The position numbers and the translations under genes were made by a program. Below are positions 10,971-42,043 of a stretch of DNA of 53,769 nucleotides, one piece after another; the first letter of the stretch is position 1; each line of letters begins with the position of its first letter. The DNA lies in NCBI GenBank assembly GCA_946804195.1, contig CAMPEU010000014.1:1-53769 (forward strand), written 5' to 3'. Source of the stretch: an uncultured Candidatus Saccharibacteria bacterium (GTDB taxonomy: Bacteria; Patescibacteriota; Saccharimonadia; Saccharimonadales; Saccharimonadaceae). The notes beneath the pieces were generated by a model. That model saw nothing but the letters and a program-made list of their open reading frames with translations, was not told the origin of the DNA and made no database searches.

Positions 10971-11007
10971 AATTAAAAATGGCCCAAAAGATGGGTCATT
11001 TTTAATT
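10971..11007. terminator. long inverted repeat, probable bidirectional terminator
   Basis: aattaaaaatggccc aaaagat gggtcatttttaatt. Confidence 0.8.
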
Positions 11008-11107
11008 GGTGCGCGTGAGAGAGCTATCGCTCCACTGCGTTGCGCTTCTCCGTTTGTTCATTCTGGCAAAAGTAAACTTTTCCAGAATTTAACTGTGCTA
11101 CACGACC
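11007..11107 (-). pseudogene. degenerate tRNA-Leu-like element with intact 3' acceptor strand and CCA
   Basis: 16-nt identity (ttggtgcgcgtgagag) to the 3' end of adjacent tRNA-Leu(GAG); on the minus strand CACGCGCACCA followed immediately by a terminator hairpin; a 5' arm resembling GGTCGTGTAGCACAG lies about 100 nt upstream. Confidence 0.55.
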
Positions 11108-11169
11108 CACCACTTTAAAATTTTGCTGGCAAAATTTTCGTGGAGAACCAAAATCTCGTCACCAAAGAC

Positions 11170-11207
11170 CAACGAAAATACCGACCATACAGGTCGGCTT
11201 TTTCGTT
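11170..11207. terminator. terminator of tRNA-Leu(GAG)
   Basis: aacgaaaataccgacc atac aggtcggctttttcgtt inverted repeat directly 3' of the CCA end. Confidence 0.8.
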
Positions 11208-11293
11208 GGTGCGCGTGAGAGGACTTGAACCTCCACGTCCCGAAGGACACTAGCCCCTCAAGCTAGCCTGTCTACCAATTTCAGCACACGCGC
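11207..11293 (-). tRNA. tRNA-Leu(GAG), CCA encoded
   Basis: Minus strand GCGCGTGTGCTGAAATTGGTAGACAGGCTAGCTTGAGGGGCTAGTGTCCTTCGGGACGTGGAGGTTCAAGTCCTCTCACGCGCACCA; long variable arm; anticodon loop TTGAGGG. Confidence 0.93.
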
Positions 11294-22640: not shown

Positions 22641-22678
22641 AAATAAAAAGAGCGACCATTCGGTCGCTCTTTTTATTT
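22641..22678. terminator. bidirectional terminator
   Basis: aaataaaaagagcgacc attc ggtcgctctttttattt. Confidence 0.9.
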
Positions 22679-22765
22679 GGTGCGCGGGGCGGGACTTGAA
22701 CCCGCACGGCTTATTCAGCCAAGAGATTTTAAGTCTCTCGTGTCTACCAATTCCACCACCTGCGC
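22678..22765 (-). tRNA. tRNA-Leu(TAA), CCA encoded
   Basis: Minus strand GCGCAGGTGGTGGAATTGGTAGACACGAGAGACTTAAAATCTCTTGG...GGTTCAAGTCCCGCCCCGCGCACCA; anticodon loop CTTAAAA. Confidence 0.92.
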
Positions 22766-22872
22766 ATATTTTTTAAGGCTTTTCGCTAGTCTGCAGGTTA
22801 CTACCGCTAGCATGTTTGACACGAGTCGTGTCTACTGTTATTTGTTCACGCAGACCACTACTGCGAAAAAAA

Positions 22873-35470: not shown

Positions 35471-35495
35471 TGCGGGTGAAGAGACTCTAAACTCC
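35471..35495 (-). pseudogene. displaced/duplicated 3' end of tRNA-Gly
   Basis: tgcgggtgaagagactctaaactc versus tgggggtgaagagaccctaactctc in the tRNA-Gly at 35606. Confidence 0.6.
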
Positions 35496-35542
35496 CGATG
35501 CTTTGCATCGGGGTGATCTCGACTATTATTTTCGGATCGGTC

Positions 35543-35557
35543 GAGAGTTAGAGTCTC
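35543..35557 (+). repeat. inverted copy of tRNA-Gly T-arm
   Basis: gagagttagagtctc (plus) versus GAGAGTTAGGGTCTC in the minus-strand tRNA, 14/15. Confidence 0.55.
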
Positions 35558-35568
35558 GAACAGCCAAG

Positions 35569-35608
35569 CCAATATAAAAACCGGCACTATGGCCGGATTT
35601 TATATTGG
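35569..35608. terminator. terminator of tRNA-Gly
   Basis: ccaatataaaaaccggc actatg gccggattttatattgg. Confidence 0.85.
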
Positions 35609-35681
35609 TGGGGGTGAAGAGACCCTAACTCTCAACCTCTTCCTTGGCAAGGAAGCGCTCTAACAACTGAGCTACACCCGC
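35606..35681 (-). tRNA. tRNA-Gly(GCC) with non-canonical D/T loops
   Basis: Minus strand GCGGGTGTAGCTCAGTTGTTAGAGCGCTTCCTTGCCAAGGAAGAGGTTGAGAGTTAGGGTCTCTTCACCCCCACCA. Confidence 0.88.
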
Positions 35682-35915
35682 GTAATTGGTACTGAGATAT
35701 TGTACCTCAACAGTGGTCAAATTTCAACCGTAAAGAAAAACACCCCCGTACGGAGTGTTTTGTATTTGTTTGAGAGCGGTCAGAATTCTCAACCATTATT
35801 ATACATAAAAATGCCAAAAACACAAGCATGAGCAACTTTGGATAAAGGTGGCAAGAACCTTGCAGATCGCCCTCTCGAGGTGGTATGCTTATAAGCATGA
35901 ACGATATGGGGCATT

Positions 35916-36485
35916 ATGATAGACCCTAAAACAAATAAAACGTCAAAGCCATCTGGCTTCACTATCGTCGAGCTCCTCATCGTCGTTGTTGTCATTGGTA
36001 TACTCGCTGCCATTGTTACCGTTGCATATACTGGGATACAGCAGAGGGCAAACAATGTCGCAATCATTGATACGGCGTCTAAAACGCTAAAGGCAATTCA
36101 GGCATATCTTGCGGTAAATAGCTCATACCCCATTACCACATATGCGAATGCGTGCGTCACTACAGTGAGCGGTTGTGACAATCTAGGTTCTCCAGTTAGC
36201 GCATATGCGACGTTTGATACGAACATAGCTACGATTGCTACGCTATCACGGAGTATCCCGGGAATTGATGGCTTATATGTTTCCTGGCATACCAGCCATA
36301 ATTATAATGGCGAGCCTCAACCTTTACGATTGACATACTTTTTATTCGGTAACAATCAGCAATGTGGACTTAGTAGGGTAATGGCCTATACATGGCCGAC
36401 AGATGCTCCTTCTGCGACGGGATATACGGCGAACATTGGAGATAAGACTCGTTGCTGGATTAGTGTTCCCGGGCCAACCTCGTAG
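35916..36485 (+). CDS. type IV prepilin-like protein
   Basis: KPSGFTIVELLIVVVVIGILAAIVTVAYTGIQQRANN. Confidence 0.9.
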   Translation: MIDPKTNKTSKPSGFTIVELLIVVVVIGILAAIVTVAYTGIQQRANNVAIIDTASKTLKAIQAYLAVNSSYPITTYANACVTTVSGCDNLGSPVSAYATFDTNIATIATLSRSIPGIDGLYVSWHTSHNYNGEPQPLRLTYFLFGNNQQCGLSRVMAYTWPTDAPSATGYTANIGDKTRCWISVPGPTS

Positions 36486-36566
36486 GGCTTTTGGCAGTGG
36501 CAACTTTCTGAATAGCGAAAATAGCAAGATAAAGAAAAAATCTCACAAATTGCGAGATTCATTCTT

Positions 36567-36647
36567 TGGTGGCTCCTCCCGGACTCGAATCGGGGACAGA
36601 GCCTTCAGCTCAAAAAAATCGCTCTGAAAGCCTTGGCTTGAAGAGCC
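36567..36647 (-). pseudogene. tRNA-Phe-derived tRNA-like element (acceptor stem, T-arm and CCA retained)
   Basis: Minus strand GGCTCTTCAAGCCAAGGCTTTCAGAGCGATTTTTTTGAGCTGAAGGCTCTGTCCCCGATTCGAGTCCGGGAGGAGCCACCA followed by terminator-like hairpin. Confidence 0.65.
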
Positions 36648-36693
36648 TTGTGTCCAAAAGAAAAATACCCATCGCATGGATGAGTATCTTTCG

Positions 36694-36769
36694 TGGTGGC
36701 TCCTCCCGGACTCGAACCGGGGACACAAGGCTCTTCAAGCCTCTGCTCTACCAACTGAGCTAAAGAGCC
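36694..36769 (-). tRNA. tRNA-Phe(GAA), CCA encoded
   Basis: Minus strand GGCTCTTTAGCTCAGTTGGTAGAGCAGAGGCTTGAAGAGCCTTGTGTCCCCGGTTCGAGTCCGGGAGGAGCCACCA. Confidence 0.94.
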
Positions 36770-36815
36770 GTATTGTTAGTACGCCGTAAACCGCTGATCA
36801 TTCACAATGACGGAA

Positions 36816-36880
36816 AGAGGCTTGCCTCTGCTCTACTATCTATGTCGGACGCCCCTTCGGGGACGATGAACTAAAGAGCC
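36816..36880 (-). pseudogene. tRNA-Phe 5'-half-like copy with expanded D-loop
   Basis: Minus strand GGCTCTTTAGTTCATCGTCCCCGAAGGGGCGTCCGACATAGATAGTAGAGCAGAGGCAAGCCTCT. Confidence 0.6.
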
Positions 36881-36915
36881 GTCATGTTAGTGAATTTGAT
36901 ATTAATGTATGGTCC

Positions 36916-36964
36916 GGCCTCTGCTCTACGATTAACTTACGTTTCACGCATGAGCTAAAGAGCC
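36916..36964 (-). pseudogene. tRNA-Phe 5'-half-like copy with expanded D-loop
   Basis: Minus strand GGCTCTTTAGCTCATGCGTGAAACGTAAGTTAATCGTAGAGCAGAGGCC. Confidence 0.6.
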
Positions 36965-37035
36965 ATATTTTGTTGGTACATCGTAAACCGTTGATCCTAC
37001 CGAGCAATTGTACCTTAACAGTGGTAGTTTTTCAA

Positions 37036-38619
37036 CTATTCAACGATTTTTTTGGAAAGCTTTTTTCCGTCGTATGCGTAGACGAGCCGTTTATTCGATT
37101 CGCTATCGACTGTTTCTAGATGAAGTGGCCTCTGCCAGAGTGTATGAATGTAGGGGAGAGTTTTTCGAATGTACTCAGGATCGAGTGATCGTCCTTCGAA
37201 TTCGTGTCGCAAATATAATTCGCCACCATTGTTGTAGTCACCGTCGACTACAACAATATATGGAGTTCCGCTGTTGTTCATAGAATTTACCAGCTCTTCA
37301 CGAATATCTTGCCATCCGGTACTTTTGACGACTTGGAAAACATCTCCGTATGCATTCATGCGTTCTTCATAAACATACATATTCATGCGATCTGCAACGA
37401 TTTTGTTAAAGTAGTTTCTGATAAATGATTGGTCGTCGTTGTGAATCATGACATCGCGAAGTATTGGCGTCGCCGGGCTATCTTTTAACTCGCCCTCGAA
37501 GCGTGGAGGGACCGGAACGTTTTCTTTTTCTAGCCATTGTTTTTCGCTATCAGTCAGGTTGCCATTGTGGTAATCTTCCAAATATTCATAGATTGTCATA
37601 CCTAGATAATACGGATTCAGTGATTGCCTACCAGGAGCAACAACGCTCGAATGAACGAGCCACCATGATTCGTTTTCTTTATCCGATATCAAATCGCGGT
37701 CGCCCATTTCTCGCATGATTCGTTTATGCCAATACGAAGCCCAGCCTTCATTCATGATTTTTGTGCGTCGCTGAGGGTAGAAATACAAGGATTGGCCACG
37801 CACTATATTGATGACATCGCGTTGCCACTCTTCTAAATACGGAGCGTGATTCCTGATAAATCCTAAAACATCGCGATCTGGACTAGGCGGGATGGGGGGA
37901 GCGATTTTATCACTAGGTTTGGCTGTCACTTCGTTTTGCGGACCAAACATGTCATCAAATTCGTTGGGCTTTTTTTGCTGTGGTTTTTGACTGCGTATGG
38001 CTTGGTCTCGCCAGATCTTCAGCTCTTCCGCCTTTGAGAGACGAAGGGGCATATAGGGATCGACGTGTTCTTCTATGGCTAATGTTGCATCGAGGAACTG
38101 CTCAACTGCCAGCTTGCCTTCTTTTTCTTCGTAGCCACGGATACGTTCAGCATCTCGGGCAGCCGATTCTGGCATGTCTCGACGGGTACCAGCAAACAAC
38201 TGATTATTTTTAAAGAAGTCGGTATGGCCCAGTACGTGAGCCATCACGAATTTGTTTTCGATAGGGGGGTTATTTTCTAAAAGAAATGCCTGAGAAGGAT
38301 TACTGTTAATCACTAGTTCGTATATTTTTGACAAACCATGATCGTACATCGTTTTTAGCTGGCGATATTGCCTGCCAAATGTCCAGTGCGTAAACCTACC
38401 CGGTATGCCGTACGAGCCCAACTGGTTGATGATATTAGGTGGGGCGATTTCGAAATGAGTTGGAAATGGATCCAGGTGGAATTCATGGGCGATGTCCCAG
38501 ATATTTTCGAGCGCTTCATCGAGCTCCCTATCTTCGTCCTCGTATTCATAATGAGGAACGGGAGCTTCTTGTTCCGGGTCTTGGTATTCGTGATTGGATG
38601 GGAATGATTCTTTGCTCAT
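37036..38619 (-). CDS. SpoVR family protein
   Basis: PGRFTHWTFGRQYRQLKTMYDHGLSKIYELVINSNPSQAFLLENNP; NEGWASYWHKRIMREM. Confidence 0.94.
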   Translation of the reverse strand: MSKESFPSNHEYQDPEQEAPVPHYEYEDEDRELDEALENIWDIAHEFHLDPFPTHFEIAPPNIINQLGSYGIPGRFTHWTFGRQYRQLKTMYDHGLSKIYELVINSNPSQAFLLENNPPIENKFVMAHVLGHTDFFKNNQLFAGTRRDMPESAARDAERIRGYEEKEGKLAVEQFLDATLAIEEHVDPYMPLRLSKAEELKIWRDQAIRSQKPQQKKPNEFDDMFGPQNEVTAKPSDKIAPPIPPSPDRDVLGFIRNHAPYLEEWQRDVINIVRGQSLYFYPQRRTKIMNEGWASYWHKRIMREMGDRDLISDKENESWWLVHSSVVAPGRQSLNPYYLGMTIYEYLEDYHNGNLTDSEKQWLEKENVPVPPRFEGELKDSPATPILRDVMIHNDDQSFIRNYFNKIVADRMNMYVYEERMNAYGDVFQVVKSTGWQDIREELVNSMNNSGTPYIVVVDGDYNNGGELYLRHEFEGRSLDPEYIRKTLPYIHTLWQRPLHLETVDSESNKRLVYAYDGKKLSKKIVE

Positions 38620-38624
38620 ATTGA

Positions 38625-39812
38625 TTAATCTATTTGTTCCTTGGGATTAAATACTTTCTTGAGTGCTGACAATACTTCCTGCTTTTCATTTATGACTATA
38701 CCCTTGAAGCGTGGGTCATGAATTTTGCTTTCATAATCGTTGAGCAGTTGGCTACGTCCGTGCAGGCCAATTTGTACATAGGCATATTGGCTAACGTCTC
38801 TGTCCAATAATCCTTGGACTAAATCAACACATTTTTCATTGTCATTAGAAAAGTTGTCACCATCCGAAAAGTGCAGGGGATAGATGTTGTATCTGTCGGG
38901 AGGGTAGCGCTCATCAATGATATCCAGCGCTAATTGGTTCGCGGACGAACATTTCGTACCTCCGCCCATACCGCGTTTAAAAAACTGTTCCTCTGTTGAT
39001 TCGCTTGCTTCGGTATCGTGGGTGATAAATACTATATCGACATTGGGATATTTAGAACGCAGGAATCCCACGGTCCACCAACAGAAGGCACGGGTAATGT
39101 ATTTCTCGAATTCGCCCATCGAACCCGATATGTCCGCCATCGCAATAACGACTGCGCTGTTTTCGGGCTGCCTCTCGTTCTCCCATGTCCGTACCCGAAA
39201 ATCCTCTGGCGAAATATTACCAATCTCGGCTTTGCCGGTTTCTATAGCGTTTCTCATCATGTTCTGCATGACAGTGCGGGCGAGGTCGAGATTGTTTGCG
39301 CTTCTGTTTTTGCGTACGTCATTAAATACCGCACGATCTGACTCGATTTCCTGGGCACCTTTTGGTTTGATCCTTGGCAGACCGAGGTCGGCGAACACCA
39401 TAGCTTGAATCTCTTCAATAGAAAGTTCAGTTTCGTAGTATTCTTCACCGGGCTGATCTCCCGCTTCGCCGTCTTCACCGGGCTGCGGTTTTTTGCCAAC
39501 GACGTCGCCGGGTTTTTCTGAACCATCACCAGAGCCGACGCCTTCTTGTGGTTGCCCATAGCGAAAACGCGGTAGCTCAAGTGAGCGCATCGGTACTTTG
39601 ATCGTTTTTTTGCTATGCGGATCTGCGGTAATAATCGTACCGTCGCTGACGAGGTTTTCGAGGTTATCTTTGATCGATTCCTTTACCTTTTCATTATGAC
39701 GCGCTTCATCTTGTGCCCCTCTTCGGTCAAATGACCAATCTTGTCGAGAGACTGAAGTGTACCAATTTTTGGGTGTTTCCATCGTATTACCATTTAGCCT
39801 TGCTGTTTCCAC
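38625..39812 (-). CDS. DUF444 / YeaH-YhbH family protein
   Basis: VIAMADISGSMGEFEKYITRAFCWWTVGFLRSKYPNVDIVFITHDTEA; adjacent to prkA and spoVR. Confidence 0.92.
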   Translation of the reverse strand: METARLNGNTMETPKNWYTSVSRQDWSFDRRGAQDEARHNEKVKESIKDNLENLVSDGTIITADPHSKKTIKVPMRSLELPRFRYGQPQEGVGSGDGSEKPGDVVGKKPQPGEDGEAGDQPGEEYYETELSIEEIQAMVFADLGLPRIKPKGAQEIESDRAVFNDVRKNRSANNLDLARTVMQNMMRNAIETGKAEIGNISPEDFRVRTWENERQPENSAVVIAMADISGSMGEFEKYITRAFCWWTVGFLRSKYPNVDIVFITHDTEASESTEEQFFKRGMGGGTKCSSANQLALDIIDERYPPDRYNIYPLHFSDGDNFSNDNEKCVDLVQGLLDRDVSQYAYVQIGLHGRSQLLNDYESKIHDPRFKGIVINEKQEVLSALKKVFNPKEQID

Positions 39813-39842
39813 CCTTTGCTACGGTGGACTACATTATTATGC

Positions 39843-41756
39843 TTAAGAACGACTCAGTAGGGTGCCAACGTATCGGATGAGTTCATTGGCACAGTGAGGA
39901 CAATAGCCTCGTTCTTCGACAAGAGTTCGTTCGACGCCTTTTATGCGCTCTTTTTGATCTTCGTCTGGAACTTTTGAGCTGGTTGTCAATTTGACCATAT
40001 CTTTGAGGTCGGCAAATAATTTCTTTTCGATTGCTTCTTTTAGCCGTGGGTGTGATGTGTAGTCGAAGGTTCCGCCACGTCTGTATGTTGTTGCCATGCG
40101 CATCAGCAGTTCACTTCTAAACTCTTTTTTGCCGTTATCGTTAACGCCAATTTGTTCTTCGATACTGCGCATTAGTTGCTCGTCTGGTGCGAATTCTTCG
40201 TCTGTAATTGGATCGAGGATTTTTGATTTATTACAAAATGCTTCGACGTTGTTTAGGTAATTACTACAAAGGCTCTTTGCTGTTTCTTCGTATGAATAGA
40301 CAAATGCACTTTGGATTTCTTTCTTTGCGGCATCATCGAATGCTTCCTTTACGGTAGCCAAGTCGGCTATTAGTGCTTCCTTGTCATTATCTTTCATGTC
40401 GCGAGTATGTGGGTGATAGTCCAAGTTATCGCGGAGTGCGCGGATAGTATCAACCGGAGTTAAGCAGGCACGATCTTGTTTGATGAGTGCCGTCGACAAT
40501 GAGTCGATGATGTAGCGTGGTGAAATGCCTGACATACCTTCGTTGCTATTTTCATCTTGCAGTTCTTTGATGTCTCGTTGGGTGAGGCCATCGGTTTCTT
40601 GACCGTCATAAATCTTTAGTTTTTGCATCTTGCTGTATTTCTTTGATGGACCCAGTCGTGAGAGGACCGAGAATGTAGCGGCTGTTTCTAGTGTGTGTGG
40701 GTTGATATGTATCTTTGATTTTTTAACGAGTTCGCTTTGACCGATGAGCTTTTCGTGGATTTTTCGTTCATCTGAAATTCGTAGAGTGTAGGGCACTGGG
40801 ATTACGACCATACGGTCACGAAGTGCTTCGTTCTTTGGATTCTGCACGTAGCTCATATATTCAGTGAGGTTGGTATGTGCGAGGATTACCTCGTCGGCAG
40901 ATATATTCGGGAACCTTGGAGCCTTGATCACTCTGTCTTGGCTGAGGTCGAGGAGTGTATACAGGAATCGTTCATCGGATTTGAGCATCTCGACGAACTC
41001 CATAACTCCGCGGTTTGCTACGTTGAGCTCCCCGTCAAATCTGTAGGCCCTAGGGTCTGATGCCGAGCCGAATTCTCCTAATTTTGATAGATCAACACTT
41101 CCGACAAGTTCTGTGATGTCTTGGGATTTTGGATCTGATGGCTTGAATGTACCGATACCAATTCTGTCTTGTTCGGAAAGTGAGATGCGCTTGATTTGCA
41201 CATTTTTCAATGCTTCTGAGGTTATGTTATCGCCGCCATAATTTGCTTCACAATGAGGGCATAGGTTGCCTTCGATATTTATGCCATACTCTTCGAGTCC
41301 CGGACGTAATCCTTTGGGAATAAGGTGGAGTGGCTCTTCTTGCATTGGACAATCCTCGATTGCATACATAGCCCCTTCGTCAGTTCTTGTGTATTCTTCG
41401 ATGCCACGCTTCGTGCCATTGACGAGCGTTGACTTACCGCTACCCGGAGGACCTACTAATAGAATTATACGTTTACCGAGCTCTAGTCCTTCGGCGCCTG
41501 CATGTAGGATATCAAGAAATCGATTTGTTGCTTTCTCGGCACCGAATAGTGCGTTTGAGCCTGTTGTAAAAAAATCAGGACGTGACGTAACCGCGTTGTA
41601 GGCAGTTTGCTGTGATGTCCTCGATATTGAAGGGTTTTCTATAACCATATCTACATATTGGTTAAAGTTTCCTTTCCATTTTAATCGTTCCTGGTCCTTG
41701 CTGTAGCGCTCAAATTGCCCGAATACGTTGTTTTCTTTTCCCCGTTCACCCGACAT
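39843..41756 (-). CDS. prkA: PrkA family serine protein kinase (YeaG-like)
   Basis: LLVGPPGSGKSTLVNGTKRGIEEYT; YAIEDCPMQEEPLHLIP; CPHCEANYGGD; SGISPRYIIDSLS. Confidence 0.94.
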   Translation of the reverse strand: MSGERGKENNVFGQFERYSKDQERLKWKGNFNQYVDMVIENPSISRTSQQTAYNAVTSRPDFFTTGSNALFGAEKATNRFLDILHAGAEGLELGKRIILLVGPPGSGKSTLVNGTKRGIEEYTRTDEGAMYAIEDCPMQEEPLHLIPKGLRPGLEEYGINIEGNLCPHCEANYGGDNITSEALKNVQIKRISLSEQDRIGIGTFKPSDPKSQDITELVGSVDLSKLGEFGSASDPRAYRFDGELNVANRGVMEFVEMLKSDERFLYTLLDLSQDRVIKAPRFPNISADEVILAHTNLTEYMSYVQNPKNEALRDRMVVIPVPYTLRISDERKIHEKLIGQSELVKKSKIHINPHTLETAATFSVLSRLGPSKKYSKMQKLKIYDGQETDGLTQRDIKELQDENSNEGMSGISPRYIIDSLSTALIKQDRACLTPVDTIRALRDNLDYHPHTRDMKDNDKEALIADLATVKEAFDDAAKKEIQSAFVYSYEETAKSLCSNYLNNVEAFCNKSKILDPITDEEFAPDEQLMRSIEEQIGVNDNGKKEFRSELLMRMATTYRRGGTFDYTSHPRLKEAIEKKLFADLKDMVKLTTSSKVPDEDQKERIKGVERTLVEERGYCPHCANELIRYVGTLLSRS

Positions 41757-42043
41757 AGCATCCCTCCTAGTCCTTTGATATTTCCACAAATTTGACTGGT
41801 TTGTACAACATTATACAGCATAATGTAAATAATAGGTGAGACTTGGATAAAGTAAAGCTAACGGCTAACCGAAGCGCCAAAGAGTCGCGTACTGGGATGA
41901 TGGCACGGCTATTAAAAGAGCTATTATAATTGCGAACTCATCGTGCATTATTAGGGGTAGACTTGTGATAAAAGCAATAGTAATACGACATAAAAACTGC
42001 TATAATATATACAGAATAAATTTGAACAAAGGGGATTCGCGAA

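Follow-up and report, generated by a model that had tools for sequence, protein, structure and literature searches.

Small RNA modules are encoded beside tRNA genes, on the same strand, in dicistronic tRNA-ncRNA genes and as tRNA leader and trailer RNAs. Integrative elements and islands that use tRNA genes duplicate the tRNA 3′ end and leave an intact tRNA, and integron attC sites are imperfect hairpins of ∼60–140 nt, conserved in structure and variable in sequence, with defined unpaired bases and cassette-like exchange. The REP elements of the REP/RAYT (Y1/HUH) system are small non-coding repeats that form hairpins and occur in many copies per genome, with a structure better conserved than their sequence (PMC3733652). 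Pseudo-tRNAs, such as tRNAOther of Bacillus cereus, are tRNA-like genes that do not serve translation (PMC3399842). In these respects each system resembles the units described here, which surround the tRNA-Phe(GAA) gene in a stretch of 53,769 nt (the window) from an uncultured Saccharibacteria bacterium.

The units differ from REP/RAYT, attC, tRNA islands and pseudo-tRNAs in a defining feature of each. Unlike REP elements (PMC3733652), they lie in the loops of cognate tRNA copies, and no ORF with a Y1-type motif was seen in genome G333, where a motif scan for the HVHL-type signature of Y1/HUH enzymes, covering the ORFs in 900 of its 909.5 kb, returned HIT-like or unrelated matches only; an IS200/RAYT element was rejected on this basis. 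In contrast to attC sites, they are without cassette genes, integron integrase or recognized attC boxes, and their flanks derive from the adjacent tRNA. The search for an integron integrase returned a single Xer-like recombinase in each of genomes G000, G103, and G333, where the one PF00589 protein per genome (310–345 aa) was taken to be the housekeeping Xer. Unlike tRNA islands, the units hold no integrase or cargo between the tRNA and its 3′ copy, include an antisense arm and a hairpin module, and are also found on the 5′ side. Pseudo-tRNAs (PMC3399842) differ from the units in that the latter are partial, match their neighbor, have replaced loops and recur throughout an order. In contrast to the tRNA-linked small RNAs, the units hold pieces of the neighboring tRNA itself and are known here from genomes alone. 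A description of such units was not found in Rfam or in the open-access literature searched, the coverage of which was incomplete, and hairpin-carrying tRNA copies are regarded, with moderate confidence, as an apparently undescribed, lineage-wide type of element in Saccharibacteria.

The array at tRNA-Phe(GAA) lies on the minus strand and comprises two 5′ units, the intact tRNA and a 3′ unit, all at the places given for them in a preliminary description of a four-unit, tRNA-Phe-derived array, the tRNA being supported by ARAGORN and Rfam and the other units by sequence. The intact gene (36694–36769) encodes its CCA and scores 67 bits with Rfam RF00005. Unit 1 (36916–36964, type alpha) and unit 2 (36824–36880, type beta) score 44.8 and 49.1 bits, respectively, with the covariance model R1 built on tRNA-Phe 5′ units, show covariation, and retain nucleotides 1–13 and ∼19–31 of the tRNA 5′ half with a hairpin of GAA apex between them. 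These hairpins, TGCGT-GAA-ACGTA in unit 1 (36938–36950) and CGTCCCC-GAA-GGGGCG in unit 2 (36850–36865), stand in the position of the D-loop, which had earlier been described as expanded and is in fact replaced. Unit 2 is further enclosed by a closing stem, ATGACGG/CCGTCAT (36807–36885). The repeat of the upstream flank, which had also been pointed out, is real, with one leader copy 5′ of unit 1 (36965–36996) and the other abutting the 5′ end of tRNA-Phe (36770–36799). A promoter-like site, TTGAAA-17-TACAAT (37007–37035), lies 5′ of unit 1 in a placement that matches relatives, and is the only such site in the region by a consensus scan that would return 1.1 by chance. Further upstream, three neighboring ORFs (37036–41789, minus strand) have by eye the look of a SpoVR/YeaH/PrkA-kinase operon.

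The 3′ unit (36567–36655, minus strand) ends in CCA and is separated from tRNA-Phe by a terminator-like hairpin, T1 (36656–36688); a second terminator, T2, lies 3′ of the unit (36531–36559). Only T2 passes a simple terminator scan, T1 falling under its threshold, and the count for the region is near chance. The unit opens with GGACACAAGGCTCTTCAAGCC (36635–36655), a 21/21 reverse complement of tRNA nucleotides 29–49, continues into a type A body with a remodeled anticodon arm (36598–36634), and closes with a sense copy of nucleotides 45–76 including CCA (36567–36598), with a single mismatch, G53A, in the T-stem. The same body is found in loci L002, L004, and L006, and the spacing from tRNA-Phe to the module is ∼100 nt in the window. 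The unit had been described as a tRNA-like copy, and its CCA end and remodeled anticodon region were correctly recognized; the 21 antisense nucleotides were overlooked, and the sense copy is only ∼32 nt long and lacks a D-arm. A covariance-model search, as the preliminary description had proposed, found tRNA-Phe intact and left the extra units unmatched: only tRNA-Phe and tRNA-Gly score in 35500–38000, the array units fall below the RF00005 gathering threshold, and tRNA is the sole family above gathering score when the Rfam 15 models are run on the scanned loci. A split or two-piece tRNA, or a tmRNA, was rejected because a single intact tRNA-Phe exists and the units have no usable anticodon arm.

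A family of such units does exist and is much larger than tRNA-Phe. Within the window, tRNA-Gly(gcc) (35606–35681, minus strand) is followed by a 3′ unit that starts with an antisense copy of its T-arm (35539–35557, minus strand) and ends with a sense copy of its 3′ end (35471–35491, minus strand). The acceptor stem of this tRNA has a C2/C71 mismatch, flagged by cmscan, and the downstream unit contains the matching CACCCGC strand and is without CCA. A 3′ unit with the tail CTCTCACGCGCACCA (11007–11163, minus strand) accompanies tRNA-Leu(gag) (11207–11293), and tRNA-Leu(taa) (22678–22765) is preceded by an alpha-like 5′ unit (22826–22858, minus strand), read by eye. Elsewhere in the genome of the window, 3′ anatomy comparable to that behind tRNA-Gly(gcc) and tRNA-Leu(gag) is found behind Arg(tcg). 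Gln(ttg) and Arg(cct) have partial pieces, and units also lie 5′ of Lys(ttt) and Leu(tag); the Leu(taa) and Thr(ggt) units were assigned by eye. Many more tRNAs bear units in G103 and in G333, the latter from a different family of the same order, and among the sampled genomes the share of tRNA genes with a cognate, loop-replaced copy reaches about one-third. A feature specific to tRNA-Phe was therefore rejected, as units lie beside many other tRNAs in three genomes.

Comparison with related Saccharibacteria, another suggestion of the preliminary description, revealed that similar units flank tRNA-Phe throughout the family, are found in different genera and stand beside many other tRNAs. Of the processed tRNA-like or tRNA-half RNAs proposed there, the existence of a family, far larger than tRNA-Phe, is supported, its members being candidates for processed RNAs. 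Among 133 tRNA-Phe loci found in relatives, sense pieces of the own tRNA (local score ≥13) occur upstream in the near flanks of 26/133 loci compared with 1/127 far flanks, and downstream in 46/129 compared with 8/125, some of these being neighboring tRNA-Gly genes. The upstream pieces correspond to nucleotides 1–14 and 19–32, and the downstream pieces to nucleotides ∼58–76 with CCA, which are preceded by the T-arm or the anticodon arm in antisense orientation. When 36 flanks of G000 and G103 with a tRNA-like piece (score ≥12) were compared with ∼35 candidate tRNAs, the adjacent tRNA was the best match for 23, with ∼1 expected. The antisense arm likewise tracks its own tRNA, reading CTTCAAGCC in the window, CTTCAGGC in L002 and L004, and including ACTGG in L127. 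The distribution is patchy, even inside one genus, and erosion is common in the 3′ tails and in the 5′ acceptor strands; a guide-RNA reading, with the tail as guide, is unsupported given the many eroded tails. 5′ units stand in tandem in L115, L120, L127, and L035.

A further module, type C, is composed of three hairpins (GGTGA-hp1-GCAAGG-hp2-GG-hp3) and is mostly located in the T-loop, where it substitutes T54–C56 of a partial tRNA copy; it otherwise occupies the anticodon loop or the D-arm. The alpha, beta, and A units of the window are one local case of the wider pattern of hairpin-carrying tRNA copies, and their link to type C rests on shared architecture and not on sequence. The type C model, R2, finds no type C in the window's own genome, and the pattern TGCGTGAAACGCAAATATTCGTAGA is absent from it. 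R1 found no match outside the window's own genome in 287 genomes of the phylum, in a search of limited sensitivity with 20 candidates scored per genome.

Both kinds of module covary. In model-fitted alignments, which are biased toward the structure of the model, standard pairs fill 98.7% of pair cells for the 26 copies (24 distinct) aligned with R1, compared with 29–53% in slid controls, and 94.4% for 23 type C sequences, compared with 32–44%, with compensatory changes at 30/34 type C pairs. A MAFFT alignment of nine type C loci, free of such fitting, has double-sided changes at 23 of the 34 pairs, and these also occur at all six pairs of the R1 hairpin. The apex of the 5′-unit hairpin is G-N-A in nearly all 26 copies; GNA apices are extra stable in DNA. 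Copies within one genome have diverged, with compensatory changes, which indicates that there was no recent burst.

Type C is closely tied to tRNA genes. Of 41 genomes sampled across the order, 22 contain R2 matches, with a maximum of 16 in a single genome. For 27 of 30 matches retrieved, the retrieved stretch includes a tRNA, always on the same strand and within 200 nt in 23; most contain pieces of the nearby tRNA. A separate public scan with a single sequence pattern returned at least 119 stretches. Among the matches listed, titled ones are nearly all from Saccharibacteria, the remainder being "bacterium" or Patescibacteria bins, and one Parcubacteria bin and one Thiothrix bin also hold the pattern; 67 of the 84 distinct elements listed lie within 200 bp of a tRNA, 44 downstream (65–115 nt) and 23 upstream, all 67 on the strand of the tRNA, beside 23 kinds of tRNA, and with cognate flanks in 63. 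Over 900 kb of G333, a tRNA is found no more than 250 bp from 15 of the 17 type C matches, compared with 0.4 expected, and type C alone touches 12 of the 35 tRNA genes. The two distant matches have a tail of Arg(tcg), 3.2 kb upstream, and a Leu-like tail. A pseudo-tRNA-Arg in this genome (L408:4845–5118), 3.2 kb downstream of tRNA-Arg(tcg), contains two type C modules, one of which apparently splits the third hairpin of the other. Type C reversed relative to the tRNA was found only three times, at L084:789–877 (minus), L088:570–659 (plus), and L132:826–916 (minus).

The favored reading, to which a probability of roughly 45% is given, is that these are structured insertion modules in the loops of duplicated tRNA ends, kept as single-stranded hairpins. 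Saccharibacterial tRNA genes are flanked by "satellite" cassettes, partial copies of the adjacent tRNA (its 5′ part on the upstream side, its 3′ part and CCA on the downstream side) whose D-, anticodon- or T-loop is replaced by a structured module of ∼20–110 nt (families alpha/beta, A, B, and C). Each module would be a small insertion element that inserts into such a loop or is placed there by recombination; insertions may persist only beside a retained intact tRNA, and each module would for this reason come to be flanked by the sequence of its own tRNA. Arrays would then expand via tandem duplication, and selection may act on single-stranded hairpins, the type C pairing profile being more DNA-like than RNA-like. 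The anatomy, cognate matching, covariation, loop position, strand bias, tandem copies and lineage restriction are observed, and mobility, the enzyme behind it and any advantage to the cell are inferred. The cognate pieces at many tRNAs argue for this reading, as do the tRNA proximity in G333, the tandem and apparently nested modules, and the presence of the same type C in three different loop contexts beside so many kinds of tRNA. Moreover, the terminators 3′ of the tRNA and 3′ of the 3′ unit are near-identical in L084 and L086, and T2 of L030 equals T1 of L093, as cassette exchange would predict, and L030 and L073 have a 3′ unit in common with different 5′ leaders. The three reversed copies and the G-N-A apices point the same way, as does the scarcity of G:U in type C, where helices other than at one conserved pair are nearly pure Watson-Crick (12 G:U and 7 A:C in 664 cells, compared with 104 and 4 in 1668 cells of real tRNA stems). 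Against it, the single Xer-like recombinases and the G333 motif scan yielded no candidate enzyme, the divergence of copies speaks against a recent burst, gain or loss between strains was not seen, and the strand bias among the public matches listed and the better sense-strand folding of 5′ units are RNA-like; however, site-specific insertion would give a fixed orientation too.

Somewhat less probable, although a close rival, is that the units function as structured RNAs within the transcription units of tRNAs. The 5′ units would be transcribed leaders and the 3′ units read-through trailers, released by tRNA processing and acting as small RNAs or controlling how the cognate tRNA matures or how abundant it is, by means of the retained tRNA strands (antisense arm, acceptor strand, and CCA). 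The strong covariation and the 67/67 strand agreement among the listed type C matches are consistent with this, as are the promoter-like sites upstream of 5′ units, the matching of the antisense arm to its own tRNA, and a G:U pair retained in 20/23 type C copies; the sense strand folds better in 23/26 of the 5′ units, which contain 7 G:U and 1 A:C. The comparison of G:U with A:C is thus mixed as a test for RNA, the 5′ units being RNA-like and type C low in G:U, and the evidence for RNA- or DNA-level selection is split. Weighing against RNA modules are the position of 3′ units behind a terminator with no obvious promoter of their own, the eroded tails and acceptor strands, the patchy distribution within a genus and the reversed type C copies. 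The insertion-module reading is preferred to the RNA reading, and both may hold together. A broader proposal, that Saccharibacteria share a tRNA-addressed system in which the flanking copy serves as the address for insertion or, as RNA, for control of the tRNA, and which would amount to a previously undescribed layer of mobile or regulatory hairpin elements acting tRNA by tRNA, is speculative and rather unlikely as it stands.

If mobile, the modules would be unusually small elements inside tRNA loops that spare the essential gene; if RNAs, they would provide controls specific to individual tRNAs in parasitic bacteria that are ultra-small and have minimal regulation. As cultured Saccharibacteria exist, both are directly testable. 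Pseudo-tRNAs annotated and att sites predicted in this lineage also need to be reassessed.

It is improbable that tRNA ends were simply duplicated in tandem and then decayed, the antisense arms arising from template switches at tRNA palindromes. The tRNA end and its terminator are directly duplicated in L084, L086, and L004, arrays are tandem and many tails are eroded, so the duplication in the earlier proposal of tandem duplication with decay holds, borne out by the L084/L086 terminators and tandem 5′ units, and pure decay does not, given the covariation and recurrence. Decay alone is insufficient because modules are conserved with compensatory changes across families, in ∼20 of them and at many tRNAs, and for types alpha/beta and C it is already contradicted. 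Palindrome-correcting mutation could imitate some of the covariation, yet would leave the conserved unpaired motifs GGTGA and GCAAGG unexplained.

A real 5.3-kb island lies at tRNA-Phe of G032 (L135:1080–6475); it contains an integrase-like ORF of 400 aa and a PF00589 match, and its far end bears 45 nt copied from the 3′ part of the tRNA. Scars or att sites of tRNA-using integrative elements are nonetheless a most improbable source of the units and were rejected at tRNA-Phe, as the G032 copy has neither an antisense arm nor a hairpin module, the modules covary, keep a tight spacing to the tRNA, are cargo-free and accompany a single Xer-like recombinase in G000, G103, and G333, and 3′-end integration would not predict 5′ units. 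Beyond the end of the island there is another T-arm-like hairpin, also found in L023 and L027.

Leaders as a replacement for RNase P were rejected because RNase P RNA is present. Other leaders also precede tRNAs in these genomes. One recurring leader, GGAAAAAGAGCAG..GATGAGAAAAACC..TTTGTCTCAT, lies directly 5′ of Phe, Val(gac), and Met tRNAs in L073, L180, and L182. A second, type L, reads AAACCAAG..CTGTTTG..GAGAGGAG..hairpin..GACGA and abuts the first base of Phe, Tyr, Lys, Gln, Met, Ser or Gly tRNAs (L006, L017, L020, L110, L136, L196, L197, L215, L216, and L220), with a Shine-Dalgarno-like stretch inside. Leader-peptide attenuation was noticed as a candidate reading of type L, and the tRNA-Tyr of L136 is preceded by a short ORF, MRQSLYLLIGKTRPL, that includes a Tyr codon.
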